Source of the DNA: Flavobacterium gelatinilyticum
GTDB taxonomy: Bacteria > Bacteroidota > Bacteroidia > Flavobacteriales > Flavobacteriaceae
DNA length: 64,000 nucleotides
Direction of reading: 5' to 3'
Assembly (NCBI RefSeq): GCF_027111295.1
Contig: NZ_CP114287.1
Location: forward strand, 2,418,001-2,482,000
The position numbers were made by a program, and so were the translations under genes. Position 1 is the stretch's first letter; each line of letters opens with the position of its first letter. The notes under the pieces are model-generated. The model saw only the letters and a list, made by a program, of their open reading frames with translations, had not been told where the DNA came from and did not search any database. This document shows, piece by piece, positions 16,940 to 32,042 of this stretch.

Positions 16940-17109
16940 AATATTTTGCTGCAAACTAAAGGCTGTTAAAAACCTTTATGATTTAGTAATTAAAAACAAA
17001 CTGTAAATAAGCCAATTGCCTTTTACAATTTTTAAAGTGCAAAAGTATAATTTTTAATTGAAGTTTTTACTTTGAAAAACAACAGGTTTTGGAATATTAC
17101 CAATAAAAA

Positions 17110-17143
17110 AAGGACTGAAAATTAAATCTAACTTTCAGTCCTT
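17110..17143 (-). terminator. Terminator after terC, end of the Ter block
   Basis: Stem AAGGACTGAAA / TTTCAGTCCTT with a 12-nt loop and, on the minus strand, a following T run, about 30 nt after the terC stop. It closes the 14-kb gene block. Confidence 0.85.
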
Positions 17144-17171
17144 CTTAAAATCTTATTTTGTTTTATAACTT

Positions 17172-18173
17172 TTATTCTTCTTCTTTTGGTTCCGGCATTA
17201 AGATCGAAGCGATTACAGAAATGATCAATACACCGCCAATTACCATTAATGAGTAAACAGAATCGATATGGTAGAATGGAGAAATAATCATTTTAACTCC
17301 GATGAATGACAAGATAATTGCCAGACCATATTGTAATTTACTAAACAAGTGAATGAAGTTGTCTAGTAAGAAAAACAATGCTCTAAGTCCCAAAATAGCA
17401 AAAATATTAGAGGTATACAGGATAAACGGATCGTTTGAGATTGCAAAAATCGCAGGGATAGAATCTACTGCAAACAGTAAATCTGTAAACTCAATTACGG
17501 CTACTACTACTAAAAGCGGTGTTGCTAATTTTTTTCCGTTTTCGAATGTAAAGAATTTGTCTCCGTCGTATTTATCGCTGACTTTAAAGAATTTTCTAAT
17601 TAATCTTGCACCTCTTGTGTTGTTGTAATCCTGATCGTCGTCATCGTCTCCTGAAGACCATGATTTGATACCTGCATATACAAGAAATAATCCAAAAGCA
17701 GTCATAATCAGGTTAATGTCATATTTGAATCCTTCTATTCCGGCAAGACCTAAAAGTTTGTTTAGATACGTAAGTTCGATTAAGAAAGCTCCTGAGAATA
17801 TAAAGATGGCTCTTAATACTAATGCTCCAATGATTCCCCAAAACAGCACTTTATGTTTGTTTTGATTAGGTACATCAAAAAATTTAAATACTAATATGAA
17901 TACGAAAAGGTTATCAACTGATAATGCTTTTTCAATCCAGTAAGCCGACTGAAATTCGTAAAATTTGGCTGCTCCGGCATAGTGATATACCAGTCCGCTG
18001 AAAATCATGGCTAAACTTATCCAGACTAATGACCAGGTAATTGCCTCTTTGTTTGATACTACGTGGCTTTTTTTGTTGAAGATTCCCAAATCCAACAACA
18101 GCATGATGACTACTGCAACCGCAAAAACGATAATTAAACCGGGATGTTCCGAAAAAATTGGGTGTTGATTCAT
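17172..18173 (-). CDS. terC: TerC-family integral membrane protein
   Basis: This 333-residue protein has about eight to nine hydrophobic helices and the family signature WIEKALSVDNLFVFILVFKFF, plus a second half with VIEFTDLLFAVDSIPAIFAIS. The conserved acidic residues in these helices are thought to bind metal ions; TerC/Alx proteins are associated with tellurite resistance and manganese export. It is the last gene of the Ter block (31 nt after the kinase gene), the place where a membrane anchor or metal transporter for the system is expected. A cytoplasmic acidic loop (SSGDDDDDQD) sits mid-protein. Confidence 0.92.
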   Translation of the reverse strand: MNQHPIFSEHPGLIIVFAVAVVIMLLLDLGIFNKKSHVVSNKEAITWSLVWISLAMIFSGLVYHYAGAAKFYEFQSAYWIEKALSVDNLFVFILVFKFFDVPNQNKHKVLFWGIIGALVLRAIFIFSGAFLIELTYLNKLLGLAGIEGFKYDINLIMTAFGLFLVYAGIKSWSSGDDDDDQDYNNTRGARLIRKFFKVSDKYDGDKFFTFENGKKLATPLLVVVAVIEFTDLLFAVDSIPAIFAISNDPFILYTSNIFAILGLRALFFLLDNFIHLFSKLQYGLAIILSFIGVKMIISPFYHIDSVYSLMVIGGVLIISVIASILMPEPKEEE

Positions 18174-18204
18174 TTTAGATATTAATTTAGTTAATTTTTT
18201 ATTT

Positions 18205-19716
18205 TTATGTATTGGCCATGGTCACATGAATTATTCTTCCACCTTCTTCATTCGAAAGCAGTATTTTTTTTCCGTCTGTAAGCTCCACCATTGTACCAAT
18301 CGGTATTTCTTTGTCTTCTGTTAAATCTTTTAGCGAAGTCAGTTTTTGATTGACCAAAACCCACTTCCCGTTAAAAAATGTAAAATACCCTACAGGCACT
18401 TTTTGCACCTGGGTTAATTTCTCATTTCTGGCAATATTACGATTAACATGCCATTGAAACAAATATTGATCATTATAAACCATCAATCTGTGATTCTCGG
18501 GCTTCCAGGTGCCTTCCTGAAACTGATAATAGAGATCTAAAACCGGAAGTGTACCCTGATGTGCTGTACTACAAAACGGACATTTTGGAGTATTAGTATT
18601 ATCAAATACATACCATTTTTGTTCGCAGGCCGGATTATGGCATTTCTGCATTAAATCGGTTGTTTTGAGTAACGCAATTTCCCATTCTTCCGCATTAGGG
18701 CGCTGCATCGGGTTATGAAGTCCATCTACAAAGACTTTATCAAATAAGGTTTTTAAATAAGGCCCTGTAATGGTATATGGGAGTTTAGTTATATCCGCCC
18801 ATGGCAAATCCCATTTTGAAACCTGATTGAGTTTAGGTCTGTTTGTATCATCTGTCGGGTGTTCGATAAACATCGCCTTCTCTCCCATTGACAGTAAATC
18901 ATCTTTTTCTGTATCAAGATCATGGACTTTCCCGCCTTTTAACGGGTGTCTGTGTAATAAAAACATATAAATTAAAACCGGAAGTGCATGCAGGTCTGTT
19001 AACCTGTTTGGCAACTTTCTATTCGGGTCGTTTTTATCTAAATGTTTGCTTGAAAGTACTTCGGGAGCAATAAATTCGGCAGTACCAATTACTTCCGCAG
19101 GAAATAACCCCGGAACAACTAATCCGTCCAGATCGATCATGCAGGCTGATCTTTCTATAGGATCGATCAAAACATTGTTGTATGATAAATCAGAATGCGC
19201 CAGTCCCATAGCATGCATTTTTTTAACACCTCGGGAAAGGTTTACGCAAACCTGAAAATAGCTTAACCAGTCGCCTAATTCTGAAGTGGCAACACGCAAT
19301 GGAAAATGAGGGTTTCTGAATTTTGGTCCTGCAAACCATTTTCCGTTTTTCTCTTTGCCCTGAATTAAATCACTGGTCTGATATCCTTTTCTAAAAAAGA
19401 ATTTCGGCTTGTAAACCGGAACAATTATCCCTGTTAAACTGTTATATTCGATGACATCTGTCGGCCATCTGAAAACTTCATTTAAATAATATTCTCCTGC
19501 TTCTCCGTTCTGAATCTGCATGTAATATTTATTGGTGATTTTCTGAAGTCTTTCTTTTTGATTAAAATCTAATTTTTCTCTAAAAATTGCCACAACGTAT
19601 TTTCTGTCGGGGCTGAAGTAGACATCTTTTACACCGCCGCGCATAGGTTCGCCATTATCAACAAATTGATAGGTTTTTGCAGGGTCGTTTATTGATTTTA
19701 CTGTAACTGTACTCAT
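18205..19716 (-). CDS. TerY-P-type Ser/Thr protein kinase with zinc ribbon
   Basis: The 503-residue protein has a kinase domain at about residues 20-350: glycine-rich GEPMRGGVKDVYF, catalytic loop HSDLSYNN (174-181; HSD instead of HRD), DLDG (195-198) in place of DFG, and APEV. The usual VAIK lysine is not obvious (VVAIFREK). A zinc ribbon follows with Cys at about 359, 364, 379 and 382, then a beta-rich tail (PVGYFTFFNGKWVLVNQ). This matches the kinase of the VWA-phosphatase-kinase triad described for Ter systems. The phosphatase gene ends 2 nt upstream, implying translational coupling. Substrates are probably TerY-like VWA or TerD proteins (inference). Confidence 0.85.
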   Translation of the reverse strand: MSTVTVKSINDPAKTYQFVDNGEPMRGGVKDVYFSPDRKYVVAIFREKLDFNQKERLQKITNKYYMQIQNGEAGEYYLNEVFRWPTDVIEYNSLTGIIVPVYKPKFFFRKGYQTSDLIQGKEKNGKWFAGPKFRNPHFPLRVATSELGDWLSYFQVCVNLSRGVKKMHAMGLAHSDLSYNNVLIDPIERSACMIDLDGLVVPGLFPAEVIGTAEFIAPEVLSSKHLDKNDPNRKLPNRLTDLHALPVLIYMFLLHRHPLKGGKVHDLDTEKDDLLSMGEKAMFIEHPTDDTNRPKLNQVSKWDLPWADITKLPYTITGPYLKTLFDKVFVDGLHNPMQRPNAEEWEIALLKTTDLMQKCHNPACEQKWYVFDNTNTPKCPFCSTAHQGTLPVLDLYYQFQEGTWKPENHRLMVYNDQYLFQWHVNRNIARNEKLTQVQKVPVGYFTFFNGKWVLVNQKLTSLKDLTEDKEIPIGTMVELTDGKKILLSNEEGGRIIHVTMANT

Positions 19717-19718
19717 GT

Positions 19719-21128
19719 TTAGTAAATTATAGCAAGGGTTCTGTCATCATGATTTCCGGGACTCCAAAAGTCCATCCAGTTTGAAAGCTGTTCTGCTATA
19801 GGTGCATTATCATTTTCGAAATCAACTTTAGAACCGTCTTCATTATTTCCTTTCAGATCAGACAGAAAGTTGTTCCATTTTTCTATTTTTTCCAGATTGG
19901 CTTCTACAACAAATTTCGGGTCGTAAATACCATCTGTCATCAGCATTAAATAAGAGAAATCATCAACTAATTTAAATCCGAAACGGGATGAAAGTTTTTC
20001 GCTCTGAAAAATCTCCGGCATGGTTATAAATCGTGTACCGCCGCCAAATTCGCCCACATCTATAGTGTTCATCAGCGTGATTTCGGTTACATCTTTATTA
20101 AGCAGACCAATCGGGCAGTCACCTACTCCGAAAGTTAGAACGGCGTAACCAAACTCATATTTTTTGACTAAAGCAAAAATTAAAGTGGCGTGGAATTTTT
20201 TAAGTTCTTCGTTATTTTCAAGGGCAAATTGTTCGATTTTCTGATTAACAAAATGGGCGCCTTTTAATAACGTACTGTAAACAAAATGGCTGATTTTTTT
20301 TGATGATTCGGGATCTGTTTTTTTATAATGGCTGAATAAAATTTCGTCAAAATCCGCAAGGTTTTCTTTATCGAGATTTTCTTCAAAATAATCAATTACG
20401 GTATCGCAGGCCAGTTTTGAACCTTTTCTGGACAACGCTGCAGAGCCAGCTCCGTCTGAAACTGCCAGAACGCTCCAGCCGTTTGAACTGAAATTTTTGA
20501 ATGCAAAATCGTCTTCTCTAAATGAGCCTGAATTGGCATGACTTCTTCCTCTTTTTGAAGCAACAACAATTTTTTTATCTAAGAAAGTACCCGAAACTGA
20601 GATATTATCTTCTTTGGCAAAAAGCGCATTTTGATCGGTTTCGATATTCTTCCAAAGTGATTTTGGATCCGGATTTACAATAAGTGTAAAGACTTTTTCA
20701 TTTAATGGTGTTTCTTCAGCTTCACCATCAATTTTAAAAAGCAGTTTTATTTTTAAGTCACCGCTTACTTTTGGGTTTCCTGAAAGAAGTTCTTTTTCGG
20801 GATCAAAACTAAGTCCGGTTTCTTCTAAATTCTGGATTTCGTACGAAATAATATCATCCCAGCCCAATTGAATAAAGTCAATTTTGGCTTCGTATGGTTT
20901 ATTTACAGTACCGTTTGGCAGAAAAACAGACTGATGCATTATATCGTCAATTCGGTTTTTTAAGTTCCAGTTCTGCATAATCATCTGCTGTTTTTCTTTA
21001 ATTAATTTTACTGCTATAATATTGGTTTCATTGGAAATAAAATCTTCAAAAAGCGATTGTTTGCTTTTTGGAATTTCGATTTTATTCTGGAATAAAAAAG
21101 ACTCTAAATATCTTTTAGTCTCTTCCAT
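19719..21128 (-). CDS. PP2C-type protein phosphatase with N-terminal Ig-like extension
   Basis: The C-terminal 290 residues are a PP2C phosphatase: FREDDFAF, SDGAGSAALSRKG (metal-binding D225-G226), GVGDCPIGLL, LMTDGIYDPKF and a final NHDDRTLAIIY. The first 170 residues are not PP2C: after a helix, the stretch GLSFDPEKELLSGNPKVSG resembles the putative-Ig (He_PIG-like) signature usually seen in surface proteins, though no signal peptide is present. It should reverse phosphorylation by the adjacent kinase. Genes are tightly packed: 4 nt from the VWA gene upstream and 2 nt from the kinase gene. Confidence 0.87.
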   Translation of the reverse strand: MEETKRYLESFLFQNKIEIPKSKQSLFEDFISNETNIIAVKLIKEKQQMIMQNWNLKNRIDDIMHQSVFLPNGTVNKPYEAKIDFIQLGWDDIISYEIQNLEETGLSFDPEKELLSGNPKVSGDLKIKLLFKIDGEAEETPLNEKVFTLIVNPDPKSLWKNIETDQNALFAKEDNISVSGTFLDKKIVVASKRGRSHANSGSFREDDFAFKNFSSNGWSVLAVSDGAGSAALSRKGSKLACDTVIDYFEENLDKENLADFDEILFSHYKKTDPESSKKISHFVYSTLLKGAHFVNQKIEQFALENNEELKKFHATLIFALVKKYEFGYAVLTFGVGDCPIGLLNKDVTEITLMNTIDVGEFGGGTRFITMPEIFQSEKLSSRFGFKLVDDFSYLMLMTDGIYDPKFVVEANLEKIEKWNNFLSDLKGNNEDGSKVDFENDNAPIAEQLSNWMDFWSPGNHDDRTLAIIY

Positions 21129-21132
21129 AGGT

Positions 21133-22185
21133 TTATCCTTGTGTTCTGTTTACATCAAAACCGCCTTCTCCATAGCCGTACGATCCCTGATTGTTACACC
21201 ACGGGCATGTGCTTACCTGCTCGTCGCCAATACAATGTATTTTTTGACATACACATACGGCAAAAGCAATCTGATTACCGCAGCACGGACAAGTTGGTCC
21301 TCCAATAAGTTCTTCTGTATTTACTTTAGTATTAAAATTACTAGAATCTGCCAGTTCAAAATAAGTATTATCAACCTGATAGGCTCCAACAAGTTTGTAG
21401 TTTTTAGATGCCAGTTCGATTCCTGCATATATCGAAGGCGCAATAACTTTGCGGTACTTCATTAGATAGGGTCTTTTGGTGTTCTGACATTTTCCGTTTA
21501 AAACTACATAATTGTCATCAACGTATTGTTTGTTGGGTTCTTCTTTGGTTAAATCTATTTTAGAAAGTGTTTCGCCGTCTAATTTTGCGAGTTCAAAACC
21601 TGACGAATTATTTTCTACCGAAATACTGCTGGTTTTGATAGAATCTGTTACCCATTTAAAAAATTCTTTATACGATTGTACATTGGTGTTTTTAAAGTGA
21701 AGCACGTTTTCTGTCAGCTGTCCTAATAATTTTGTGTCGGTCTCATTTCCAAACGAAACGGCAATTAAATTTGCTGTTCGCTGCCAGTTGTTTTTCCATT
21801 CATTTATAGCGGCCTGTGTGTCATCTGTAGGGACTCCGTCTGTGAACAGAAATACAATTGGTTTCCAGTCTCCTTTAACTTCATAAGTTGTTTTAACAAT
21901 ATTGCTTCTTAATTCATACATCAAATGTCCGAGTCCTTTGCTTAGTGATGTACCGCTTCCTATTGGGAATTTAGGCGGATAAAAACTCACTATTTCCTGC
22001 AGCGGCACCAAAGTTTTTGGCTGTCCGGCAAAAACAATAATAGAGACATAAACGGTTTCAAGCGCATGCGGATCTGTTTTTAATGCCTGAATTATGGTAG
22101 ATAGTCCTTCTTCGACCTGCTGAATAGGTTCGCCAACCATTGACTCTGAAATATCAATTAAAAAATATATTGGTAATCTTCTCAT
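21133..22185 (-). CDS. TerY-like VWA protein with C-terminal zinc ribbon
   Basis: This 350-residue protein has a von Willebrand A domain (about residues 1-200) with a metal-ion-dependent adhesion site: DISES, GTSLSKG and FTDGVPTD. A linker then leads to a cysteine-rich C-terminus (CPCCGNQ, CVCQKIHC, CPWC) that should bind zinc; the arrangement is that of TerY proteins with a C-terminal metal-binding domain in TerY-P triads. It is translationally close to the phosphatase gene (4 nt) and to the small membrane protein gene (1 nt). It is likely the scaffold that joins kinase and phosphatase to the other Ter proteins. Confidence 0.88.
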   Translation of the reverse strand: MRRLPIYFLIDISESMVGEPIQQVEEGLSTIIQALKTDPHALETVYVSIIVFAGQPKTLVPLQEIVSFYPPKFPIGSGTSLSKGLGHLMYELRSNIVKTTYEVKGDWKPIVFLFTDGVPTDDTQAAINEWKNNWQRTANLIAVSFGNETDTKLLGQLTENVLHFKNTNVQSYKEFFKWVTDSIKTSSISVENNSSGFELAKLDGETLSKIDLTKEEPNKQYVDDNYVVLNGKCQNTKRPYLMKYRKVIAPSIYAGIELASKNYKLVGAYQVDNTYFELADSSNFNTKVNTEELIGGPTCPCCGNQIAFAVCVCQKIHCIGDEQVSTCPWCNNQGSYGYGEGGFDVNRTQG

Positions 22186-22186
22186 T

Positions 22187-22438
22187 TTAAAGGAATTTTA
22201 ATAGCATTAAAAATATAATTAAGAGTACAATCTGGCTCATATCGACTGCTAATCCTGCTCCAACCTGAAAAGGTTTTATAAAGGTTTTCAGAAAATTGAA
22301 TATGGGCGAAAATATAGTGTTGAAAAAGTCAAAAATCGATTTGTACTGAGGATGCAATTTATCTTTGTAAGGCAGTAATTTTGAATATAAAAACAAGCCG
22401 ACAATTAGAATATTGAGGAATATTTTAATCAAATCCAT
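22187..22438 (-). CDS. Small membrane protein of the Ter block, 83 aa
   Basis: No family recognised. It has an N-terminal hydrophobic segment (IFLNILIVGLFLYSKLL), an amphipathic middle (YKSIFDFFNTIFSPIFNFLKTFIKPFQVG) and a C-terminal hydrophobic segment (MSQIVLLIIFLMLLKFL). Its ATG overlaps the previous stop as TAATG at 22436-22440, so it is co-translated with the 149-aa protein. A membrane anchor or adaptor for the VWA proteins is a guess from position. Confidence 0.75.
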   Translation of the reverse strand: MDLIKIFLNILIVGLFLYSKLLPYKDKLHPQYKSIFDFFNTIFSPIFNFLKTFIKPFQVGAGLAVDMSQIVLLIIFLMLLKFL

Positions 22439-22887
22439 TACAAAAGTGACTTTATAAGCTCGTTGGCTATTTCTTTAAAAACTTGTCTTTCAGCAGCATT
22501 TTTAGTTGAATATCCATATACCGCTACTCCATTATTAGGTTCCATATAATTAATTGAAAAACAGGCACCGTAGCATTTATTTCTTCCCTGAAGCGGAATA
22601 TCATGTCTTACTTTTAGATACGCACAGTTTTTCCGAACAATAACATCATGAATATCAAACTCGTTTTTGGTGTAATTTTGTTTTAAAATCTGTTCTGTTT
22701 TTTTTATATCAAAATTGGCAATTCCGGTAGTTTCATAGCATATAGTAATGTTATCTATATCCATGGTTTCTAATATCTGATCCGAACTTAATTCTATATT
22801 TTCAAGCTCATTTTCTCGTCCTTCCTGATAGGCCTCATCAATTGCTGTTGCTGCATGAATGAGTAGTTTTGAAAATGTAATTAGCAT
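22438..22887 (-). CDS. Ter-block hypothetical protein, 149 aa
   Basis: No family recognised. It is soluble and alpha/beta in character: a helical N-terminus (FSKLLIHAATAIDEAYQEG), then strands (ITICYETTGIANF, CAYLKVRHDIPLQGRNKCYGACFSINYME) and a C-terminal helix (AERQVFKEIANELIKSLL). It sits between a VWA gene (18 nt upstream) and the small membrane gene (1-nt overlap), so it is an integral part of the operon. The fold may resemble a small sensory or profilin-like sheet domain, but this is not supported by any motif. Confidence 0.75.
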   Translation of the reverse strand: MLITFSKLLIHAATAIDEAYQEGRENELENIELSSDQILETMDIDNITICYETTGIANFDIKKTEQILKQNYTKNEFDIHDVIVRKNCAYLKVRHDIPLQGRNKCYGACFSINYMEPNNGVAVYGYSTKNAAERQVFKEIANELIKSLL

Positions 22888-22905
22888 ATCCGGTATTTTT
22901 TAAGA

Positions 22906-23541
22906 TTAAACTACAACTGTTATTTCGCTTGGCGGTGGCGGCAGTGTTACACTTTCTCCTGTTCCCTGGCTTTTATTTCCCTGTTCGATTGTTTCGGAAA
23001 CCCATTTAAAAAATTGTTTTAAAGTAGAGCTGTCTGCCGAATCAAGATGAACCACATTATCTGTAAGTTCTTTCAGAATACTGTCGTTTGCCATATGACC
23101 TGCTGCACAGCCTACAACGGCGCCAAAATTCAGGGCTTTTATTTCCTGTATCTTTTCTCTGTAAAACTGAATATCGGATGGTTTTCCGTCTGTAAAAACA
23201 AAAAGCAGCGGTTTCCAGTCGCCTTTGAGCGTTGCTGATCCTTTTATAACTTCGGTTTTTACTTTCTGAATTACAAAATCCAGTCCTGCTCCTGTATTGG
23301 TAGGGCCACTCTGCGGACAAGTTATTTCGGGAAGCTGAAAATGAACCAGTTCTGTTAACGGCACAATTTCTTTTACTTCTCTGTCGTAGGTTATAATACT
23401 AATCCACAGCGAATCAAGAGCCTGAGCGTCTGAGCGCAGCGTATTAATCATACCGCTTAAAGCATTATTCAGAGCCTGAATAGGTTCTCCATACATAGAC
23501 CCTGAAGTATCCAGCAAAAAATATACGGGTAGTCTTCTCAT
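22906..23541 (-). CDS. TerY-like VWA protein, short form A
   Basis: This 211-residue VWA domain protein has metal-site motifs DTSGSM (11-16), GPTNTGAG and FTDGKPSD. It aligns over its whole length with the VWA gene at 23620-24258 (same MRRLPVYxLLDTSGSM start, same WVxxxI helix at the end), showing tandem duplication. Unlike the third VWA protein it lacks a zinc ribbon and ends in LPPPPSEITVVV, a proline motif shared with its neighbour. It is cytoplasmic with no signal peptide. Confidence 0.88.
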   Translation of the reverse strand: MRRLPVYFLLDTSGSMYGEPIQALNNALSGMINTLRSDAQALDSLWISIITYDREVKEIVPLTELVHFQLPEITCPQSGPTNTGAGLDFVIQKVKTEVIKGSATLKGDWKPLLFVFTDGKPSDIQFYREKIQEIKALNFGAVVGCAAGHMANDSILKELTDNVVHLDSADSSTLKQFFKWVSETIEQGNKSQGTGESVTLPPPPSEITVVV

Positions 23542-23619
23542 ATTACTTTTTAAAAAATATTAAAACAATGAAAATGCAAACTTTAAAATTCAATTTATTT
23601 AACTCCGCCACGACTGAAA

Positions 23620-24258
23620 TTAAACTACAATGTTTAATTCAGATGGTGGCGGAGGTAATTCTTTAAAATTGGTGAGTTCTCTGCCTGAATCTTCTATTTT
23701 TGTTGATGTTACGCCAATCGAAGCGGTTACCCATTGAAAAAACTTCCCGATACTGGAACTGTCTGCGTTTTCCAGACTTACAACAGTATCTGTAATTTGT
23801 TTCAGGACATTCGTATCTGCGCCTCCTCCTGCTGCACAGGCAACAGTAAAAGCTGTTTTTACTTTTTTAAATTCTGCCAGACCGTTTTGCCAGTTATCTG
23901 TCGGGATTCCGTCAGTCATAATAAATACGAGCGGTTTCCAGTCTCCTTTTTGTTCTGTTGTTGTTTTGGCAACTTCAGATTCAATTTTTTGTGCCGTTAA
24001 TCTCAAAGCATCTCCCAGAGCCGTTACTCCTGTTGCTTTTAAATCGACCATTTGAAAAGAAGCCAAATCGGTTAAAGGAATAATCTGTTGTGCAGTACTG
24101 TCAAAAGTAATCACGCTTAAGAAAGCTGTTTCGATTGCCTGCGGATTCTGACGTAATGAACTAATCATCATTTGAACGCCATTTTTTACAGCTTCAATAG
24201 GTTCTCCGGTCATTGATCCGGATGTATCTAACAATAAATATACAGGTAGTCTTCTCAT
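23620..24258 (-). CDS. TerY-like VWA protein, short form B
   Basis: This 212-residue VWA protein has metal-site motifs DTSGSM, TGVTALGD and MTDGIPTD. It is the tandem paralogue of the gene at 22906-23541 and shares the C-terminal LPPPPSELNIVV. The 78-nt gap between the two paralogues is one of the two longest in the Ter block, and no terminator was seen in it. In Ter systems TerY-type VWA proteins are thought to scaffold complexes with TerD and the kinase/phosphatase; that role is inferred here. Confidence 0.88.
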   Translation of the reverse strand: MRRLPVYLLLDTSGSMTGEPIEAVKNGVQMMISSLRQNPQAIETAFLSVITFDSTAQQIIPLTDLASFQMVDLKATGVTALGDALRLTAQKIESEVAKTTTEQKGDWKPLVFIMTDGIPTDNWQNGLAEFKKVKTAFTVACAAGGGADTNVLKQITDTVVSLENADSSSIGKFFQWVTASIGVTSTKIEDSGRELTNFKELPPPPSELNIVV

Positions 24259-24271
24259 CGTGTTATTTTAT

Positions 24272-24685
24272 TTATACAGGAATATTGTAAGTTGGTGCCT
24301 GAGCCGTATCGTCTCCTGAATTTGAGCTTACTACCCCGCCAATGTTATATGTGCTTGTATTTGCTTCCGGATCGTGCTGGATTAATTCACTCATAACTAC
24401 CTGAGTAAAATCTTTTCCTCCCACGATATGATGATAAAGCGACCCGATTGTATAAATTGGTCCCCATGGAAATCCCCACCATCCAATGAAGAAATTCAGC
24501 AAGACATATCCGTACGAATATTTAAAAGTGTTTTCGCCGGGTCTGATAAAATAAATGTCTGAACTTCTTTTCAAAGTCATTAATATGAACGAAATAGTAT
24601 ATGGGAAAACAACAAATTTTCCGCCCTGATCGACCAGGTCTCTTATCTGAGAAACTCGCAGTCCTTCTATGTTTTTGATTAACAT
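24272..24685 (-). CDS. Ter-block membrane-associated hypothetical protein, 137 aa
   Basis: No family recognised. Hydrophobic segments at about residues 26-40 (GKFVVFPYTISFILMTL) and 62-85 (YVLLNFFIGWWGFPWGPIYTIGSL) suggest two membrane helices or a re-entrant hairpin, with GWWGFPWGP being unusual. The C-terminal 40 residues are polar and contain two related short motifs, TYNIGG and the terminal TYNIPV. Its ATG overlaps the TerD-like stop by one base (TAATG), so it is translationally coupled to that gene. Confidence 0.75.
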   Translation of the reverse strand: MLIKNIEGLRVSQIRDLVDQGGKFVVFPYTISFILMTLKRSSDIYFIRPGENTFKYSYGYVLLNFFIGWWGFPWGPIYTIGSLYHHIVGGKDFTQVVMSELIQHDPEANTSTYNIGGVVSSNSGDDTAQAPTYNIPV

Positions 24686-25344
24686 TACAGGTACGACTGA
24701 ACGATTTTGTGAATAGTCTGTCCTAAGAATGTATCATCCGTTGGATCTCCAATAGCACTAAATTTCCACTCTCCGTTACGTTTGTACAATTTACCCATGA
24801 TGATAGAGCGTTTGTTTACGTACTGACGGTCTGCAGATACATTGTATGATGCAAACTCAGAAACTACTTTTGTCGGCGTACCTTCGTACATTCTGATTTT
24901 TGCGTATGGAATTTGAGAGAAATCCTCTTTTCCGGCATTGTTTAAAAAGAAAAATATCTGATTTACTTTGGCATCAACTTTCGAAAGGTCAACTGTGATA
25001 ATTTCGTTGTCTAAACCATCATCTCCTCCCTTATCACCTTCAAGATCATCACCTGTGTGTCTTAAAGCACTGTCAACACTTACTAATTTACCTTTTGGTA
25101 AACCAAACTGCTGCAATACTTCAACTCTGTATAAAGGTGAGTATAAATGATCGCAAAGTTTGTTCTGATCATCAATTAAAACGCAGCTTAAATCTAAGTC
25201 GATGTCTACTACATTTTTTGATAATCCTAAAAAGCCTTTTGTTTCAATTGCTCCCCAGTTTACTCCCACACAGAAGTTTGTTAATGTTTCTCCGCTTGAT
25301 TTTCTTAAATCAATCTTTTGTCCTTTGGTTAAGTTAATTGCCAT
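24685..25344 (-). CDS. TerD-family protein, long form (219 aa)
   Basis: It begins MAINLTKGQKIDLRKS, shared by all TerD paralogues here, then has GVNWGAI and an inserted loop (KGFLGLSKN) before the acidic DIDLDLSC. The calcium-binding region is GDDLEGDKGGDDGLDNEIITVDL. The C-terminal half (FASYNV, KRNGEWKFSAIGDP) is canonical TerD. Compared with 28017-28625 it has a longer insertion between the acidic loops (YSPLYRVEVLQQFGLPKG). TerD domains bind Ca2+ and occur in stress and metal-resistance operons; no enzyme activity is known. Confidence 0.92.
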   Translation of the reverse strand: MAINLTKGQKIDLRKSSGETLTNFCVGVNWGAIETKGFLGLSKNVVDIDLDLSCVLIDDQNKLCDHLYSPLYRVEVLQQFGLPKGKLVSVDSALRHTGDDLEGDKGGDDGLDNEIITVDLSKVDAKVNQIFFFLNNAGKEDFSQIPYAKIRMYEGTPTKVVSEFASYNVSADRQYVNKRSIIMGKLYKRNGEWKFSAIGDPTDDTFLGQTIHKIVQSYL

Positions 25345-25364
25345 TTCTGTAAATCTTGTTTAAA

Positions 25365-25916
25365 TTAATTATATTTATTTAAGTAATCCTGTAAACCGCC
25401 TTTCATTCCAATTCCAACCGCTTCGAACTTCCATTCGTCATTTCTTTTGTAAATTCTTCCAAACTCAACTGCTGTTTCGATAGAGAAATCTTCGTCAAGT
25501 TCATATTTTACCAATTCTGTATTTGATTCATCCAAAATTCTGATAAATGAATTTCTGATCTGTCCGAAGTTTTGTCTTTTCGTATCGGCGTGGTGTATCG
25601 TAACTACAAATGAAATTTCCTGAACTTCCGGAGAAATTTTAGATAAGTCAACGTAGATTTTTTCATCGTCGCCATCGCCGTCGCCGGTTAGGTTATCTCC
25701 TGCGTGAATAACTGCCTGATCCGGAGATTTTAAGTTATTGTAATAAATAAAATGATTGTCGTTTGGAATTTTTCCGTTTGCACCAACTAAAAAAACTGAA
25801 GCATCCAAATCAAAACTTGATCCTGTGCTGCTTGAATTACTATCCCAGCCTAATCCTACAGTAAATTTAGGAGCGCTGATGCTTTGTCTTTGTCCTTTCT
25901 CTAAGTTAATTGCCAT
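25365..25916 (-). CDS. terD: TerD-family protein, canonical form (183 aa)
   Basis: Canonical length and motifs: MAINLEKGQR start, GLGWD, FDLDAS, YYNNLKSPD, the calcium loop GDNLTGDGDGDDE, GQIRNSFIRI, FSIETAVEFGRIYKR and the end GMKGGLQDYLNKYN. It is closest to the paralogue at 28629-29183. It is followed in the operon by a long-form TerD, the same order as the 28629/28017 pair, which suggests duplication of a two-gene unit. Confidence 0.93.
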   Translation of the reverse strand: MAINLEKGQRQSISAPKFTVGLGWDSNSSSTGSSFDLDASVFLVGANGKIPNDNHFIYYNNLKSPDQAVIHAGDNLTGDGDGDDEKIYVDLSKISPEVQEISFVVTIHHADTKRQNFGQIRNSFIRILDESNTELVKYELDEDFSIETAVEFGRIYKRNDEWKFEAVGIGMKGGLQDYLNKYN

Positions 25917-25925
25917 TTTATTTTT

Positions 25926-26894
25926 TTAATTAATATTAATATTCAACATTGTTTTTAAAATATTGGTTTGTTCATCGACATTCTGCAATTCATCCAGAAA
26001 ATCTACTGATGAAATTTTTTCAAGATACTCTTTTAATACTTCCAGAACACTTTCCGGCAATGTGGTTTTTATCGTGCTGAGTTCTTTCTTAAGTTCGGCA
26101 TTTTTGTTTTTTAATCCTTTTACAATCGTTTCTTTAGAAGAATCATTTTTAGAAAGATCAATTCCTTTTACAGCTTCTTCATTGAGAAAGTAAAACGATT
26201 TTTCATTGGCTACAAAAACAAACTTATCGTTAGAATCCCTAAACTCGTAAATCTCTATTATTTCATTATTACAGACCAGTCCGCACGAAAATTTTATTTT
26301 GAAATTCAGGATGTTTAAACGTCCTAAAAGTCTTCGTTCAAATCTGGCATGTGCATTTTCGTATACACTTTTGTTAAACTGCGACAATTTTTCATACTGG
26401 TCGATGGTTATTTCCCTGTAATATTCGGATTGCACCCTTTGAGAAAATGTTATGAGATCGTTCCAGTTAAAGAAAACATCTTTTTTATCTGACGCTAGCT
26501 GCTGATAGAGTTCTTCTATCTTTTTGGACATATTCAGCGCATGAAGCTGCATTTGTTTAGCAAACTTTGTATCGCCTATTTCCTGTTTTAGTTTTACCAG
26601 AATGTCTTCATTAATATAAATCTCATCTGAAATTAAAACGTACTGCTGTTCCTTTGATTTTTTTAGTTTTTGAAATAAATCGATCAGACTGTTAGTATAT
26701 TGAATATGAAAAAGTTCCAGTTTATTAATATCTAATATTCTGTTGTTTTCAAAGAGTTTGTGTATGATTTTTGTCCGTACCAAAACTCCAACAAGATCCT
26801 TGTGATTAAAGAAATTGGCCAGCAATTCTAAAATCACAAGTTTTCTGTTACTTTCTTTTATTATTTCAAGATATCTTTCCTCTTCCTCCTGCAT
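25926..26894 (-). CDS. Ter-block helical hypothetical protein, 322 aa
   Basis: No family recognised. It is highly charged and almost entirely helical, with probable coiled coils at about residues 60-90, 110-160 and 255-285 (KNKNAELKKELSTIKTTLPE). A beta-rich stretch lies in the middle (LVCNNEIIEIYEFRDSNDKFVFVANEKSFYFL). It sits 9 nt before the canonical TerD gene and 32 nt after telA. Its helical character next to TelA suggests a structural or TelA-associated role, but that is inference only. Confidence 0.75.
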   Translation of the reverse strand: MQEEEERYLEIIKESNRKLVILELLANFFNHKDLVGVLVRTKIIHKLFENNRILDINKLELFHIQYTNSLIDLFQKLKKSKEQQYVLISDEIYINEDILVKLKQEIGDTKFAKQMQLHALNMSKKIEELYQQLASDKKDVFFNWNDLITFSQRVQSEYYREITIDQYEKLSQFNKSVYENAHARFERRLLGRLNILNFKIKFSCGLVCNNEIIEIYEFRDSNDKFVFVANEKSFYFLNEEAVKGIDLSKNDSSKETIVKGLKNKNAELKKELSTIKTTLPESVLEVLKEYLEKISSVDFLDELQNVDEQTNILKTMLNININ

Positions 26895-26926
26895 TTATCT
26901 ATTTTCAAACATTCTTTTTATTATTC

Positions 26927-28012
26927 TTAGCTTACTACGCCTTTTTTCAGTTCTTGTTCAAGACTTTGTAAACCTGCGTCAAGCTGTCTTCTGGTTTCTG
27001 TACCCTGCTCGTGTATTTGTTTTACTTCTGTCAGTGTATCAATCAAAGATTTTGTTGTCATTTTTAGTGTTTCAAGAGAAACGATTGTGTTTTCGTTTTC
27101 TTTGGCTACTTCGATACTGTTTTGTTTCAGCATTTCGGCATTTTTCTGCAAAATAGTATTGGTAGTTTCTGATACTTTTCTTTGTACTTCGATATTCTGT
27201 TTTTGTCTCTGCAATGCAACGGCAAGCGTCAGCTGGTTTTTCCAAACTGGCAGTGTTGTAGTCAGGATAGACTGTGCTTTTTCGGCAATCGACGTGTTGT
27301 TGTTCTGCACCACTCTAATTTGAGCCAGAGACTGAAGCATAATAAAACGCACGATTTTCATATCAGCAAGACGTTTGTCTAAACGATTAATGAAAGTTCT
27401 TTTATCAGAAATCTGATAATCCTGATATTGTGCGCTGTTTCCTTCCATTACAGCAAGTTCTTCGTTTAATTCCTTAAAACGAATTTGCCCTGCAATAATG
27501 TGTTTTTCCATTTCTTTGATCAGATTCACGTTTCCGTCAAACATAGTCTGAAGGGCGCTGTTATCTTTTACAGAATTGATCATTCCGGCTTTTACCTTAT
27601 TGCTGATTTTATCAATGTTTACAGTAATTTTATCGTATTCCTGAAACAGTTTTTTAACATCGATAATAAATTTATTCAGCAATGGAATTTTTGAAACAAA
27701 TCGTTTAAAAGGTCCCTGATCCAGCTGATCAACATCAACATAATTTAGTTCTGTTAATAAATCATTGATCAAACCTCCTACTTCACCTGAATTATAAGTT
27801 CTTACGTTTGTTAAGAAATTATCACTTTGTTTGGCAATAGAATTTTGAATTTCAGCGCCATAATTCAGTATCGAATTGGCATCGTTCTCGTTTAACTGAT
27901 TTGATATAGATTTGTAATTATTTACATCTGCTTCTGTAACAACAGCTAAATTTACATTTCCGTCTTTATCAATTAAGGCTGTATTCTCCTGAGTAACTAA
28001 TTGATTTTCCAT
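26927..28012 (-). CDS. TelA-like toxic anion resistance protein
   Basis: This 361-residue helical protein matches the TelA (toxic anion resistance) family: the N-terminal LNENDANSILNYGAEIQNSIAKQSDNFL, then VGGLINDLLTELNYVDVDQL and FKRFVSKIPLLNKF, then long coiled helices with LAVMEGNSAQYQDYQISDKRTFINRLDKRL and LTTTLPVWKNQLTLAVALQRQ. TelA proteins accompany Ter systems and confer tellurite or stress tolerance by an unknown mechanism. The gene is 4 nt from the upstream TerD gene and clearly in the operon. Confidence 0.9.
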   Translation of the reverse strand: MENQLVTQENTALIDKDGNVNLAVVTEADVNNYKSISNQLNENDANSILNYGAEIQNSIAKQSDNFLTNVRTYNSGEVGGLINDLLTELNYVDVDQLDQGPFKRFVSKIPLLNKFIIDVKKLFQEYDKITVNIDKISNKVKAGMINSVKDNSALQTMFDGNVNLIKEMEKHIIAGQIRFKELNEELAVMEGNSAQYQDYQISDKRTFINRLDKRLADMKIVRFIMLQSLAQIRVVQNNNTSIAEKAQSILTTTLPVWKNQLTLAVALQRQKQNIEVQRKVSETTNTILQKNAEMLKQNSIEVAKENENTIVSLETLKMTTKSLIDTLTEVKQIHEQGTETRRQLDAGLQSLEQELKKGVVS

Positions 28013-28016
28013 GATC

Positions 28017-28625
28017 TTATAAGTGATTCTGTTGAATTGTAACGATTGTCTGTTCTAGTTTTTTATCGCTTGTAGGCACTCCTACTGCGTTGAATTTCCA
28101 TTCGTCGTTTCTTTTGTAGAAAACGCCTAATACCATCGAAACGTTTCCTGCAAAAGAAGCATCGTTTGCGATATCATAACGGGCAAATTCCTGACTTACT
28201 CTTGTTGGCGTTCCTTCGTATATTCTGATAGAAGCAAAAGGAATATCTTTAAAATCCTGGCCTCTAAAACTGTTTATAAAAAATGCAACATAACTTGCAG
28301 AAGGCGTTAATTGAGAAAAATCTAAAGTAATAACTTCATTATCAAGTCCGTCGTCGCCATTTAAATCTCCTGTTAAATCATCTCCGCTGTGTTTGATAGC
28401 GCGGTCGTTTGAAATTAATTTTCTAAAGTTTACGGAGTCAATATGTGTTTTTTTCTCATCGTAAACTGCACAGCTTGCATCTAAATCTACAGGTTCTTTT
28501 TTGGTGCCAAAAAATCCTTTTTTCTCGATTGCTCCCCAGTTTACTCCTACGCAGATGTTTACCAGTTTTGAACCGTTGCTTTTTTCAAGATTTATACGTT
28601 GTCCTTTTTCTAAATTAATTGCCAT
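28017..28625 (-). CDS. TerD-family protein, long form (202 aa)
   Basis: It has MAINLEKGQRINLEKS, GVNWGAIEKKGFFGTKK, VDLDASCAVYD, and the calcium-binding GDDLTGDLNGDDGLDNEVITLDF. Like the 24685-25344 protein it belongs to the subgroup with the NWGAI signature and an inserted loop, and ends KRNDEWKFNAVGVP. It starts 3 nt after the stop of the canonical TerD gene at 28629-29183. Confidence 0.92.
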   Translation of the reverse strand: MAINLEKGQRINLEKSNGSKLVNICVGVNWGAIEKKGFFGTKKEPVDLDASCAVYDEKKTHIDSVNFRKLISNDRAIKHSGDDLTGDLNGDDGLDNEVITLDFSQLTPSASYVAFFINSFRGQDFKDIPFASIRIYEGTPTRVSQEFARYDIANDASFAGNVSMVLGVFYKRNDEWKFNAVGVPTSDKKLEQTIVTIQQNHL

Positions 28626-28628
28626 ATC

Positions 28629-29183
28629 TTAGTTATATTTATTTAAGTAATCCTGTAATCCGCCTTTCATTCCAACACCCATTGCTTCAAATTTCCATTG
28701 TCCGTCTTTGTTGTAAATTCTTCCAAATTCAACTGCTGTTTCAATAGAGAAATCTTCTTCAAGTTCGTATTTCACCATTTCTGTATTATTAGAATCATCT
28801 ACAATACGAATGAATGAATTGCGCACCTGCCCAAAATTTTGTCTTCTGCTTTCGGCATCGTGAATGGTAACCACGATACAGATTTCTTTTACGGCAGAAT
28901 TGATTTTAGTCAGGTCTATTTTGATTTGCTCGTCGTCTCCGTCGCCATCTCCCGTAAGGTTATCTCCTGTATGAATAACTGATTCATCCGGAGCTTTTAG
29001 ATTATTGTAAAAAATAAAATGATCGTCAGATAATATTTTCCCATTAGCTCCAACAATAAAAGCCGAAGCGTCAAGGTCAAAACTAGAACCTGTACTGCTG
29101 TTGTTTGTATCCCACCCTAAACCAATTGTAAATTTGGGTGCATTTATATTTTCTCTTTGTCCTTTCTGCAAATTAATAGCCAT
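28629..29183 (-). CDS. terD: TerD-family protein, canonical form (184 aa)
   Basis: The 184-residue canonical TerD has MAINLQKGQR, GLGWD, FDLDASAFIVG, FYNNLKAPD, the calcium loop GDNLTGDGDGDDEQIKIDL, GQVRNSFIRI and the end GMKGGLQDYLNKYN. It is nearly collinear with the 25365-25916 protein, and both are followed directly by a long-form TerD gene. The gap to the phosphoribosyltransferase gene upstream is 3 nt. Confidence 0.93.
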   Translation of the reverse strand: MAINLQKGQRENINAPKFTIGLGWDTNNSSTGSSFDLDASAFIVGANGKILSDDHFIFYNNLKAPDESVIHTGDNLTGDGDGDDEQIKIDLTKINSAVKEICIVVTIHDAESRRQNFGQVRNSFIRIVDDSNNTEMVKYELEEDFSIETAVEFGRIYNKDGQWKFEAMGVGMKGGLQDYLNKYN

Positions 29184-29186
29184 AAT

Positions 29187-29993
29187 CTAATCTATTTTTA
29201 TTACGTTAATATTGTTTTTATATTCTAAAATCTGATGGTAGTTGTTACTAATCGCCAGATGAAATAATTCGTTGCTTTTTTTTCTTGAAATGTTCGAAAT
29301 CAGATACGCGAATTGTTTATCATCCATACTCAGGATAAATTTTACAATTCTGGTATTGTATTGAAAATCTTCGCTGTTAACAATCGAAATAATATCTTCT
29401 ACGTTTTTAACGGCGAAATAATTATAATGATTTTCGATTTTTGGGTGAACCTCTTTGTTTGTCAGTTCGGCATAATACACAAAAACAAAATCACCCTGAA
29501 CATCGTACTGGTTCAGGATTTTGTTTACGGTATGTTCATGGCTTCCGGTTATTTTAATATCGTCTACAAAAATGCACAGCTTCCCTTCGATAAAATTACG
29601 ATCAATGTAATAGGTATCGTTTGAGATTAGTTTTACCCTTTGCTCAAAATCGAGATTGCCGTAATCTGTTACATAAGTCTGGTTTCTGTAAATTTTTGAT
29701 TCGATACAGGCTTTTTTACCGTTTTTAAATAAAAAGCCGTTGAGTTCTTTTTTAAAATAATAGCATAAAAAATTGGAAGCCGTAGGAATAGACAAATACG
29801 GACTTGGGAGAATTACAATGTCTTTATCTGACAATACTAAATCTCCGTATTCTTCTATAAATCCGTCAAAAAGATCCTCAGCAAATTTCTCTGCATAGAA
29901 TTTGTCGCCAAATTTAAACCGGCTGTATTCTGCTTCTTTAAAAGGACAAATATCCTGATCTGTGATTTTATGTAAGCTGTAACTTTTATTCAC
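29187..29993 (-). CDS. Ter-associated phosphoribosyltransferase
   Basis: This 268-residue protein has the PRPP-binding motif IFVDDIKITGSHEHT (about residues 136-150), which defines type I phosphoribosyltransferases, and an upstream beta-strand region VILPSPYLSIPTASNFLCYYF. The C-terminal 60 residues are helical and extra to the core. Ter systems often carry a biosynthetic module with phosphoribosyltransferase and HAD enzymes thought to make a nucleoside-like metabolite; here it is adjacent to the HAD gene (2-nt gap). The base or acceptor substrate cannot be read from the sequence. Confidence 0.82.
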   Translation of the reverse strand: MNKSYSLHKITDQDICPFKEAEYSRFKFGDKFYAEKFAEDLFDGFIEEYGDLVLSDKDIVILPSPYLSIPTASNFLCYYFKKELNGFLFKNGKKACIESKIYRNQTYVTDYGNLDFEQRVKLISNDTYYIDRNFIEGKLCIFVDDIKITGSHEHTVNKILNQYDVQGDFVFVYYAELTNKEVHPKIENHYNYFAVKNVEDIISIVNSEDFQYNTRIVKFILSMDDKQFAYLISNISRKKSNELFHLAISNNYHQILEYKNNINVIKID

Positions 29994-29995
29994 TT

Positions 29996-30661
29996 TTATA
30001 TTTTTAGAAGGTGTGCATTAAAACCAAATTGTATCGCTCCGTTGTAATCAGCGATACTATTGTCGCCAATATGCAGTACCTCTTTTTTTTCTATTTTTTT
30101 ATATTTACTTATTTCATCGAGTACAAGCTGAAAAATAGCTGCACTTGGTTTTGAAAACCCGGCTTCATCAGAATAAATCTGAAATTTGAAATAATCTGAC
30201 AGTTCATAATATTCGAGCAGTTTTCTTAAAGCCGCTCCTTTTATAAATGCCGTATTACTCAAAATACTTATCGATTTGTCCTGATTTGTAATTTCCTGAA
30301 ACATTTTTTTTATATCGGGAAAAATCAAAACTGGCTTGTATTCTAAAAACAATTCCTCTGTATGTCCGTAAAACTGAAACAGACGATCTGTGTCATTTTT
30401 AACAATATCAACGTCCAAAGCGCTTAAAATTAGGTAATAAATTTCGTATGTGTCTATATTTAATCCTGTTTTTTCGTTAATATTATTACACAAAACATCA
30501 AAATAGCGCACAATCTCATTTACTTTTTCGATTGGATGTTCAATTTCAAAAAAATCCCTGAACAATGCATTTCTTTTCTGCTTAAATTCAGGGGATGATT
30601 TTATTAATGTAAGCCATAAATCAAAAGACAGATGGCTGTAATTTTCATAGTTTATTTTCAA
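29996..30661 (-). CDS. Ter-associated HAD-superfamily hydrolase
   Basis: This 221-residue HAD protein has motif I SFDLWLTLI (Asp in the FDLW context, residues about 12-20), motif II ISILSNTAF, motif III lysine in GFSKPSAAIFQLVL and motif IV HIGDNSIADYNGA. The cap is of the helical C1 type, so a small phosphorylated metabolite is the likely substrate. It lies directly before the phosphoribosyltransferase gene and could remove phosphate from that enzyme's product or a precursor (inference). Confidence 0.85.
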   Translation of the reverse strand: MKINYENYSHLSFDLWLTLIKSSPEFKQKRNALFRDFFEIEHPIEKVNEIVRYFDVLCNNINEKTGLNIDTYEIYYLILSALDVDIVKNDTDRLFQFYGHTEELFLEYKPVLIFPDIKKMFQEITNQDKSISILSNTAFIKGAALRKLLEYYELSDYFKFQIYSDEAGFSKPSAAIFQLVLDEISKYKKIEKKEVLHIGDNSIADYNGAIQFGFNAHLLKI

Positions 30662-30741
30662 AAGTCTGTTTTTAAAATTTACAATAAAAACATTGGTTTA
30701 GTGACTAAAACCAAATGCACTGCAAAACTGAAATTTTATAA

Positions 30742-31317
30742 TTATTTAATGATTTCCCCTGAATAATATTTCTCAAGAAAAAATCCCAGATCAGCTTTAT
30801 AACCAATACCTGAAGCTTCGAATTTCCAGTTTCCATTTCGTTTGTACAATCTTCCAAACTCAACACCGGTTTCAATAGAAAAATCTTCTCCAAGTTCATA
30901 TTTGGCAATTTCCTGTCCGTTTGCATCATCGACAATTCGGATGTACGAATTTCTTACCTGTCCAAAATTTTGTTTTCTGCGTTCAAAATCTTCAATAGTA
31001 ACCACAAAAAGAACTTCTTCAACAGCAGGATCAATTTTGCTTAAATCAACTTTTATTGCTTCATCGTCATCGCCGTCACTGTTTCCTCCTGTCGGGTCGT
31101 CTCCGGTATGAATTAATGCACCGTCCGGAGATGATAAATTATTATAAAAAACAAAGTAACTTTCACCTAAAAGCTTTCGGTCTGAATTGATCATAATTGC
31201 CGAAGCATCTAAGTCAAAATCATGTCCTGTGCCTTCATTTGGGTCCCAGCCTAAACCAACAGTTATATTAGACAGTCCAATATCGATCCTTTGTCCTTTT
31301 TGTAAATTTATTGCCAT
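30742..31317 (-). CDS. terD: TerD-family protein, first gene of the Ter block (191 aa)
   Basis: It has MAINLQKGQRIDIGLSN, GLGWDPNEGTGHDFDLDASAIMI and a variant calcium loop GDDPTGGNSDGDDDEAIKVDL, then GQVRNSYIRI, FSIETGVEFGRLYKR. The end differs from the others (KADLGFFLEKYYSGEIIK instead of the KGGLQDYLNKYN type). It is more diverged from the other canonical copies than they are from each other. As the first gene it should lie nearest the promoter; I see only a weak TATTATTG (7 of 8) at 31348-31355 upstream. Confidence 0.92.
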   Translation of the reverse strand: MAINLQKGQRIDIGLSNITVGLGWDPNEGTGHDFDLDASAIMINSDRKLLGESYFVFYNNLSSPDGALIHTGDDPTGGNSDGDDDEAIKVDLSKIDPAVEEVLFVVTIEDFERRKQNFGQVRNSYIRIVDDANGQEIAKYELGEDFSIETGVEFGRLYKRNGNWKFEASGIGYKADLGFFLEKYYSGEIIK

Positions 31318-31658
31318 TATACTATTTATTTAAAATTTTAACCTATACAATAATACAAAAAAGCCGACCTTAAAAAATGCGGGATCGCGTAAAAAGAGAA
31401 ATACTTATTAACAAAATCAATAATTATCTTATTAAATTAAAATGATTTCAGTATTTTATAGTGAAGCTGTTCAACGACAAAGGACTACAAATTTTATGGC
31501 TTCAAAAACGCAAAAGAGATCACTGATTTGAGCAGAAAAGACAAACTTTATCACTATATTTACAGCCTCTTTTAAATGATCAAAACCGGCATTACGAGCT
31601 GTAAATTCAGACACTTTTACTAAAGGGTTCGTAATACTGCAAAACACATCTAATACAA
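31318..31658. other. 341-nt intergenic region upstream of the Ter block and DUF983 gene
   Basis: Divergent control region. On the minus strand TATTATTG at 31348-31355 is a one-mismatch match to TAnnTTTG about 35 nt before the first terD start; no TTG box is at the proper distance. A 29-codon ORF (31442-31531, +) is present but has no supporting signal. No terminator or clear operator was seen. Confidence 0.35.
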
Positions 31659-32042
31659 ATGTTTAAAAAAGGATCCAAAATCAATAGTATCTTTACAGGA
31701 AGCTGTCCAAAATGCCAAAAAGAAAGCATGTATGAAGACAAAAATCCGCTTCATTTAGCCAAAGTTCTCAAAATGAATGATCACTGCAGCCACTGCGGAT
31801 TAAAATATCAAATAGAGCCCTCATTTTTTTATGGGGCAATGTATGTGAGTTACGGGTTGAATGTTGCAGTAGGAATTGCTGCCTTTATCGTATCATTTGT
31901 ATTTTTTGGATCTACAATAGAAGAATCTTTTATTGCAATCGTGATTACCTTAATTCTTTTGTTTCCGTTTGTACTTCGTCTTTCTAGAAATTTATACATT
32001 AATATGTTTATTTCTTACGATCCAAAGGTCGGCCAGAAGTAA
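31659..32042 (+). CDS. DUF983 family membrane protein with zinc-ribbon-like N-terminus
   Basis: This 127-residue protein begins with two Cys pairs (CPKC at about residues 18-21 and CSHCG at about 43-46) followed by two hydrophobic segments (VSYGLNVAVGIAAFIVSFVFF and IVITLILLFPFVL). This is the layout of DUF983, a small bacterial membrane family of unknown function. The last 35 nt overlap the convergent oxidoreductase gene. Confidence 0.85.
   Translation: MFKKGSKINSIFTGSCPKCQKESMYEDKNPLHLAKVLKMNDHCSHCGLKYQIEPSFFYGAMYVSYGLNVAVGIAAFIVSFVFFGSTIEESFIAIVITLILLFPFVLRLSRNLYINMFISYDPKVGQK

Follow-up and report, generated by a model that had tools for sequence, protein, structure and literature searches.

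Is the Ter-type gene cluster of Flavobacterium gelatinilyticum an unusual and biochemically reduced member of its kind, or a common layout built from units that are each present or absent as a whole? The cluster lies in a stretch of 64,000 nucleotides (assembly GCF_027111295.1, contig NZ_CP114287.1, positions 2,418,001 to 2,482,000), hereafter the window, where it spans positions 17172-31317 and comprises 18 genes, all on the minus strand. The original prediction had counted sixteen, although its own list of 14 placed and four unplaced proteins sums to 18. Five genes encode TerD and three encode VWA proteins (one of them TerY), whilst TelA, PP2C, a kinase, TerC, a HAD-superfamily enzyme and the phosphoribosyltransferase PRTase_3 are encoded once each, alongside four unplaced proteins (U322, U137, U149 and TM83). 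The predicted coordinates, strand and families were confirmed, the families by Pfam and NCBIfam matches, and domains and motifs support the predicted Ter-type system with a VWA-kinase-phosphatase triad. The cluster belongs to a known kind, namely Ter systems that carry a TerY-P triad. Moreover, from its sequence and by analogy with described systems, we lean towards the view that it acts as a stress or conflict system, in a form common in Bacteroidota and with both optional modules (TelA-U322 and the triad) present.

The genes are read in the order TerD, HAD, PRTase_3, TerD, TerD, TelA, U322, TerD, TerD, U137, VWAb, VWAa, U149, TM83, TerY, PP2C, kinase and TerC. As predicted, their spacing is mostly coupled, with 15 of the 17 intergenic gaps measuring -1 to +32 bp and the remaining two 78 and 80 bp. 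The cluster is probably a single transcript that ends after TerC. Just 3′ of TerC there is a terminator-like hairpin on the minus strand (17107-17146), for which the position alone is suggestive; seven terminator-like sites were found between 16800 and 31800, compared with 8.6 expected in shuffles. No tRNA genes were found in the window.

Units of the cluster across related loci

An alignment scan of named genomes with PRTase_3 returned 332 relatives, and the best 80 of these 332 loci were analysed, with distant arrangements under-sampled. The 80 loci were annotated with profiles built from the window's families and extend at most 10 kb beyond the PRTase gene, such that the kinase and TerC are often cut off. 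A separate set of 16 loci overlaps with these in some contigs (e.g. L024/L042 and L023/L060). In a phylum survey of 395 genomes, PRTase_3 was found above cut-off in 15 and full-length U322 in 15, and these are the identical 15 genomes. For each of the two families three weak matches, from different genomes, were set aside; L038 and L039, which hold two of those for PRTase_3, are loci without any gene matching the cluster profiles.

The most constant unit is the enzyme pair. The HAD gene (29996-30661, minus strand, TTG start, Pfam Hydrolase E 5.6e-13) and the PRTase_3 gene (29187-29993, minus strand, GTG start, Pfam PRTase_3 E 3.6e-90) are adjacent in 79 of the 80 loci. The phosphoribosyl pyrophosphate (PRPP) loop pattern, VDDIKITGSH in the window, was recovered in all 80, and four loose HAD motif patterns matched in 79/79, with motif I reading D-x-W-x-T in every case. 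The pair also occurs on its own. On Rhizobium plasmid pRL10 it has no Ter genes within 18 kb, and in Capnocytophaga (L086:9325-10804) none within 10 kb, being flanked there, in line, by a gene for DUF4130 and one for CCP_MauG (a di-haem peroxidase). On a Hymenobacter plasmid the pair is divergent beside a Ter set. PRTase_3 matched only 17 plasmid records, from Rhizobium (15), Sinorhizobium (1) and Hymenobacter (1), and no enterobacterial ones. In three loci (L078:8663-9322, L091:8671-9321 and L106:8671-9321) a protein of 216-219 aa with the TerD-like start MAINLQK, missed by the TerD profile, lies upstream of HAD.

The other enzymes of a nucleoside-like pathway were then considered. Among the 18 cluster proteins there was no match at E 0.1 to ATPgrasp_Ter (PF15632), the citrate-lyase-like family, PRTase_2 or TerB. 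The citrate-lyase-like family C-C_Bond_Lyase (PF15617) was found in 0/17 genomes carrying PRTase_3, the window's genome included, and PRTase_2 reached its cut-off in 0/17, with two genomes showing sub-cut-off matches and the window's genome showing none. The claim that TerB, ATP-grasp and citrate-lyase-like members are absent therefore stands for the cluster and, for the citrate-lyase-like family, genome-wide. As to the other two, a partial TerB match above cut-off (38/118 positions, 28.9 bits) lies 1.5 Mb away, and the genome gives one weak ATPgrasp_Ter match (E 6.6e-5). As the same ATPgrasp_Ter search is positive in 373 of the 395 genomes, we take the latter to be general ATP-grasp cross-talk. 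Given that the pair is adjacent in nearly every locus, exists without Ter genes nearby and is never accompanied by the citrate-lyase-like family in these 17 genomes, it is better seen as a unit of its own than as a remnant. From these sequence comparisons, HAD-PRTase_3 looks like a self-contained two-enzyme unit, which runs counter to the proposal of a biosynthesis reduced to two enzymes. A PRTase/HAD arm has also been published: for Ter systems, biosynthesis is assigned to phosphoribosyltransferases and HAD fold phosphoesterases (PMC7824862).

TelA (26927-28012, minus strand, Pfam E 5.7e-92) and U322 (25926-26894, minus strand, 322 aa) form a second unit. They are adjacent in 65 of the 80 loci and jointly absent in the other 15. 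U322 is thus TelA's fixed partner, present in 65/65 loci with TelA, which is a new point here. The structure model of U322 has long helices and a small strand domain (mean predicted local distance difference test score (pLDDT) 84.7), for which fold comparison gave no convincing match; precomputed annotation assigns the protein to PF26677. In the TelA-U322 position of L067, L068 and L069, ~900 bp after the PRTase gene, there is instead an SH3b-domain protein (domain scanned in L067) and a 113-aa unplaced protein.

The third unit is the triad of TerY (21133-22185; TerY_C E 8.9e-49, VWA E 5.8e-14), PP2C (19719-21128; PP2C_2 E 2.6e-28) and a Ser/Thr kinase (18205-19716; Pkinase E 2.3e-08), all on the minus strand. 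TerY, in which a VWA domain is joined to the metal-binding TerY_C domain, carries a metal ion-dependent adhesion site (MIDAS) of the form DISES and a TDG motif. PP2C has SDGAGS, TDG and DDRT, and the kinase HSDLSYNNVL, IDLDG and a C-terminal zinc-ribbon-like cysteine motif, CHNPAC...CPFC, although no zinc-ribbon model matched. These motifs are widely kept in the named loci: MIDAS in 40/40 and CxCC in 36/40 TerY proteins, and [SA]DGAGS in 41/42 and DDRT in 42/42 PP2C proteins. Of 23 uncut kinase copies, 22 keep the catalytic motif; 20 further copies are cut by the locus end. The one exception, a 59-aa remnant of the kinase 3′ terminus lying between the TerD and TerC genes (L066:15467-15646), suggests that this locus has lost its triad.

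Combining these modules, 30 loci contain TelA, U322 and the triad, 35 contain TelA and U322 without the triad, 12 contain the triad without TelA and U322, and three contain neither (L069 on a short contig, and two from Capnocytophaga, L086 and L088, the latter on a 3.7-kb contig). The layout of the window is therefore one of three common layouts and not, as had been suggested, an unusual one: amongst the best 80 of the 332 loci, 65 have TelA and U322, and 30 of these also have the triad.

TerD is present in 78 of the 80 loci, and its acidic loop in 267/269 copies from named loci. The five copies in the window, all on the minus strand, give Pfam E values between 2.5e-30 and 1.3e-73: the first gene of the cluster at 30742-31317 (1.7e-67), then 28629-29183 (1.3e-73), 28017-28625 (5e-31), 25365-25916 (4.3e-72) and 24685-25344 (2.5e-30). 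Two further minus-strand VWA proteins, VWAb (23620-24258, E 2.7e-14) and VWAa (22906-23541, E 2.1e-14), both have the MIDAS DTSGS and a TDG motif; across named loci MIDAS was found in 77/77 VWA proteins and TDG in 76/77. For TerF there was only a vWA-TerF-like match of E 0.019, below cut-off. TerC, the last gene (17172-18173, minus strand), encodes a TerC/Alx-family membrane metal transporter with eight hydrophobic stretches (Pfam TerC E 2.5e-49; NCBIfam TIGR03718, the Alx subfamily, E 3.9e-106). The 137-aa U137 (24272-24685, minus strand), which has no Pfam match, is found in 25 of the 42 VWA-containing loci; it has 494 relatives, with a Pfam domain in none of the 120 listed. Conservation of the unplaced genes with the cluster, the lack of which the original prediction had named as part of a refutation, consequently holds for U322 in every TelA locus and for U137 in part, whereas U149 and TM83 occupy a variable slot.

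A variable slot and the genomic site

The slot between VWAa and TerY holds U149 and TM83 in the window. Elsewhere it holds TM83 alone, TM83 with a Macro-domain protein lying between it and TerY (L068:14611-15120, E 1.2e-36), an AIM24 protein with a 164-aa unplaced protein (L080:13876-14631), or nothing. TM83 (22187-22438, minus strand, 83 aa) has two hydrophobic stretches by hydropathy and a YGGT match of 1.5e-4, below cut-off. U149 (22438-22887, minus strand, 149 aa) is the fastest-changing gene, its median identity to the window being 46% over 16 full loci as opposed to medians of 72-95% for 16 other genes, TerC lying outside those loci. Its model comprises a helix, strands and a helix (mean pLDDT 83.0). 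A word-based protein search with the window-type U149 found 35 proteins including itself, missing most of the other type. We also considered U149 as a degenerate Macro domain and rejected this: the Pfam match of E 0.08 is below cut-off, three relatives have no Macro match and the Macro protein of L068 is a separate gene.

Two types of U149 exist among 19 clusters, one without an N-terminal hydrophobic stretch (the window, L042, L047 and L057) and one with it (15/19). The U149 tree splits these types at a support of 100, yet six other genes combined, from the same 19 clusters, reject that grouping (approximately unbiased (AU) test, p-AU 1.8e-43). This conflict indicates recombinational exchange of U149, the surrounding genes tested having kept a common history. 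The small U149 gene thus seems to be swapped between strains, again a new point here. Exchange may not be limited to U149, the tree test having covered that gene alone. The mean correlation of non-synonymous differences (pN) with other genes was lowest for TM83 (0.18; a short gene), followed by U149 (0.31), TerD1 (0.33) and PRT (0.35). Positive selection on U149 was rejected: its median ratio of non-synonymous to synonymous substitution rates (dN/dS) of 0.19 (118 of 171 pairs, dS under 1.5) exceeds the values of all others among 17 genes yet is still well short of 1, which implies purifying selection overall.

The block as a whole is either present or absent. In the window it occupies 16955-31658 (14.7 kb) between an ABC-F gene (15026-16954) and a DUF983 gene (31659-32042). 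The ABC-F gene is found in 80 of 81 genomes of the genus, and 14 relatives drawn from these were fetched around it. In 13 of the 14, DUF983 lies directly beside ABC-F with no Ter gene, whilst the fourteenth has the cluster there. Among 96 loci searched (some genomes were fetched twice), 26 match one or both of the window's flanks, that is DUF983, a flavin adenine dinucleotide (FAD) oxidoreductase and gldN/gldM on one side and ABC-F on the other. This site is not universal, since one genome (G004) has a triad-less cluster on a different contig from its ABC-F gene, with flanks unlike those of the window. Adjoining the block are tandem GldN paralogs (33170-34162 and 34347-35336) beside GldM (35382-36926), and two GldN paralogs were also seen in 11 of the 13 relatives where that stretch is visible. 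A functional link between the block and these gliding genes was rejected, as 13 of the 14 relatives keep gldM/gldN without the block.

A possible mechanism and its alternatives

How might such a cluster work? In the published scheme for Ter systems, a PRTase/HAD arm provides the signal, TerB and TerD bind it, and TerC, TelA and vWA proteins form sub-membrane structures (PMC7824862). TerD has further been suggested to recognise nucleotide derivatives (PMC7159879), and TerY-P is hypothesised to be a metal-sensing phosphorylation switch (PMC11090510). From the families present we infer a similar order of events. HAD and PRTase_3 would make, trim or recycle a phosphoribosylated, nucleotide-like small molecule, which TerD proteins might bind together with, or in place of, a divalent metal. 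TelA and U322 could build a sub-membrane scaffold, and the kinase and PP2C, under the control of metal-dependent VWA proteins, may set the phosphorylation of this scaffold or of TerD. Variable input to the triad would most likely enter via U149-TM83. TerC would carry the output at the membrane, as metal export or a membrane change, and the outcome would be protection from metal or oxyanion stress or from phage entry. That U149-TM83 is an exchangeable input cassette, whose soluble and membrane-anchored versions are swapped (elsewhere for Macro, AIM24 or nothing) so that a conserved Ter switch hears strain-specific cues such as phages, is a rather unlikely extension of this scheme. If it were true, Ter clusters would be polymorphic conflict systems whose sensor can be exchanged.

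Several observations weigh against the scheme. Motif I of the HAD protein reads D-x-W, where D-x-D is usual, in 79/79 loci, and phosphatase action is therefore not to be assumed, although the variant is not unique: a solved HAD structure named as a phosphatase (2om6) carries FDVWNTLL at this position. TelA-U322 and the triad are each missing in some loci, hence neither is needed by the rest of the cluster. Rfam at gathering cut-offs revealed no manganese riboswitch or other RNA family in the window. Lastly, PADLOC on 10 of the 18 cluster proteins gave no match for nine and weak kinase matches for the tenth.

Three other explanations were weighed. The cluster could be mainly a metal-homeostasis operon in which TerC exports manganese or zinc, TerD and VWA proteins act as metal buffers or sensors, the triad tunes the response and effects on phages are secondary. 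The Alx subfamily of the window's TerC fits this, as do the manganese export by TerC proteins of Bacillus subtilis, which metalates exported enzymes (PMC12096827), and the loss of tellurium, zinc and manganese resistance upon deletion of terC in Klebsiella, where zinc induces ter genes (PMC12054061). However, it leaves the HAD-PRTase pair and the exchanged U149 unexplained, and presence or absence of a whole block at one site suits an accessory system better than housekeeping; we regard it as possible but doubtful. We are equally hesitant about a mainly anti-phage role, with the TerY-P triad sensing infection, U149-TM83 giving specificity and Ter proteins blocking entry or stopping growth. TerY-P-like modules with an OB-fold kinase do defend against phage (PMC11090510, PMC7699616), Klebsiella lacking terC grew less under four of eight phages and no differently under the other four (PMC12054061), and the patchy block and U149 allele exchange are in keeping with such a role. 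The stand-alone antiphage TerY-P of Gao 2020 has an OB-fold at the C terminus of its kinase. Against this role, the kinase of the window ends in a zinc-ribbon-like motif, PADLOC offered weak kinase matches at most for the 10 of 18 proteins scanned, Pfam recognised no nuclease or effector in the block (though four of its proteins are unplaced), and the dN/dS of U149 does not indicate positive selection overall.

The last alternative concerns the enzymes only. A nucleoside-like pathway may have been reduced from ATP-grasp, citrate-lyase-like, PRTase and HAD members down to two enzymes, given that HAD and PRTase_3 are the sole enzymes present and that the genome has no match to the citrate-lyase-like family or PRTase_2. 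Yet these two families are equally missing, at cut-off, from all 17 PRTase_3 genomes, and the pair, near-invariant amongst the best 80 of 332 loci, stands without Ter genes nearby on pRL10 and in Capnocytophaga and is divergent in Hymenobacter; we consider reduction improbable. The Ter stress or conflict system with a constant enzyme pair remains our preferred reading. Ter genes are widespread, and the comparison splits the cluster into units: the constant HAD-PRTase_3 pair, TelA and U322, which never occur apart, the triad, and the slot of U149 and TM83. Units gained or lost as wholes tell the experimenter what to delete. Because the two-enzyme arm is apparently self-contained, two purified proteins could suffice to look for its product. 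Natural controls are available in neighbouring species of Flavobacterium, which either have or lack the block at this site. The exchange of U149 and the partnership of U322 with TelA are the points worth following.

Comparison with known systems

A search of the literature found no title naming this arrangement of TerD, TelA and TerY-P with HAD-PRTase_3, though Anantharaman, Iyer and Aravind (2012) may describe it; a Flavobacterium columnare genome paper mentions TerD (PMC5395568). The Hymenobacter monticola plasmid Ter set (L040) shares a TerC-like protein (DUF475), a kinase, PP2C, two VWA proteins, three TerD proteins and the HAD-PRTase_3 pair with the window. It differs in having no match to the TelA, U322, TerY and U149 profiles and in carrying HAD-PRTase on the opposite strand. 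We know of no triad or PRTase_3 beside MeeF (YceF) or MeeY of Bacillus subtilis. What these two have in common with the cluster is TerC-family metal transport (PMC12096827).

In the Klebsiella ter locus, terZABCDEF and HAD accompany a putative biosynthetic set of 14 genes with terXYW (PMC8115787). The likeness lies in Ter genes accompanied by a putative biosynthetic set and HAD. However, the Klebsiella locus forms two divergent operons, whereas the window's cluster lies on one strand with a PRTase_3 that lacks enterobacterial plasmid matches. The TerY-P triad as described (VWA, PP2C and zinc-ribbon kinase; PMC11090510) corresponds to the adjacent TerY-PP2C-kinase genes and the C-terminal cysteine motif of the kinase. 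Here it sits within a TerD-TelA-TerC cluster that has two extra VWA proteins, and not beside a restriction or nuclease system. Of the general Ter scheme in PMC7824862, the cluster has TerD, TerC, TelA, vWA and the PRTase/HAD arm but not TerB; that scheme names TerB and TerD as example binders, and TerD is present. Another close counterpart is the Ter-dependent stress response systems of Anantharaman, Iyer and Aravind (2012). Compared with these, the window's cluster is without TerB, TerF above cut-off, ATP-grasp, the citrate-lyase-like family and PRTase_2. It shares TerD, TerC, TelA, vWA, PRTase, HAD and same-strand clustering with them, and adds U322, U137, U149 and TM83.

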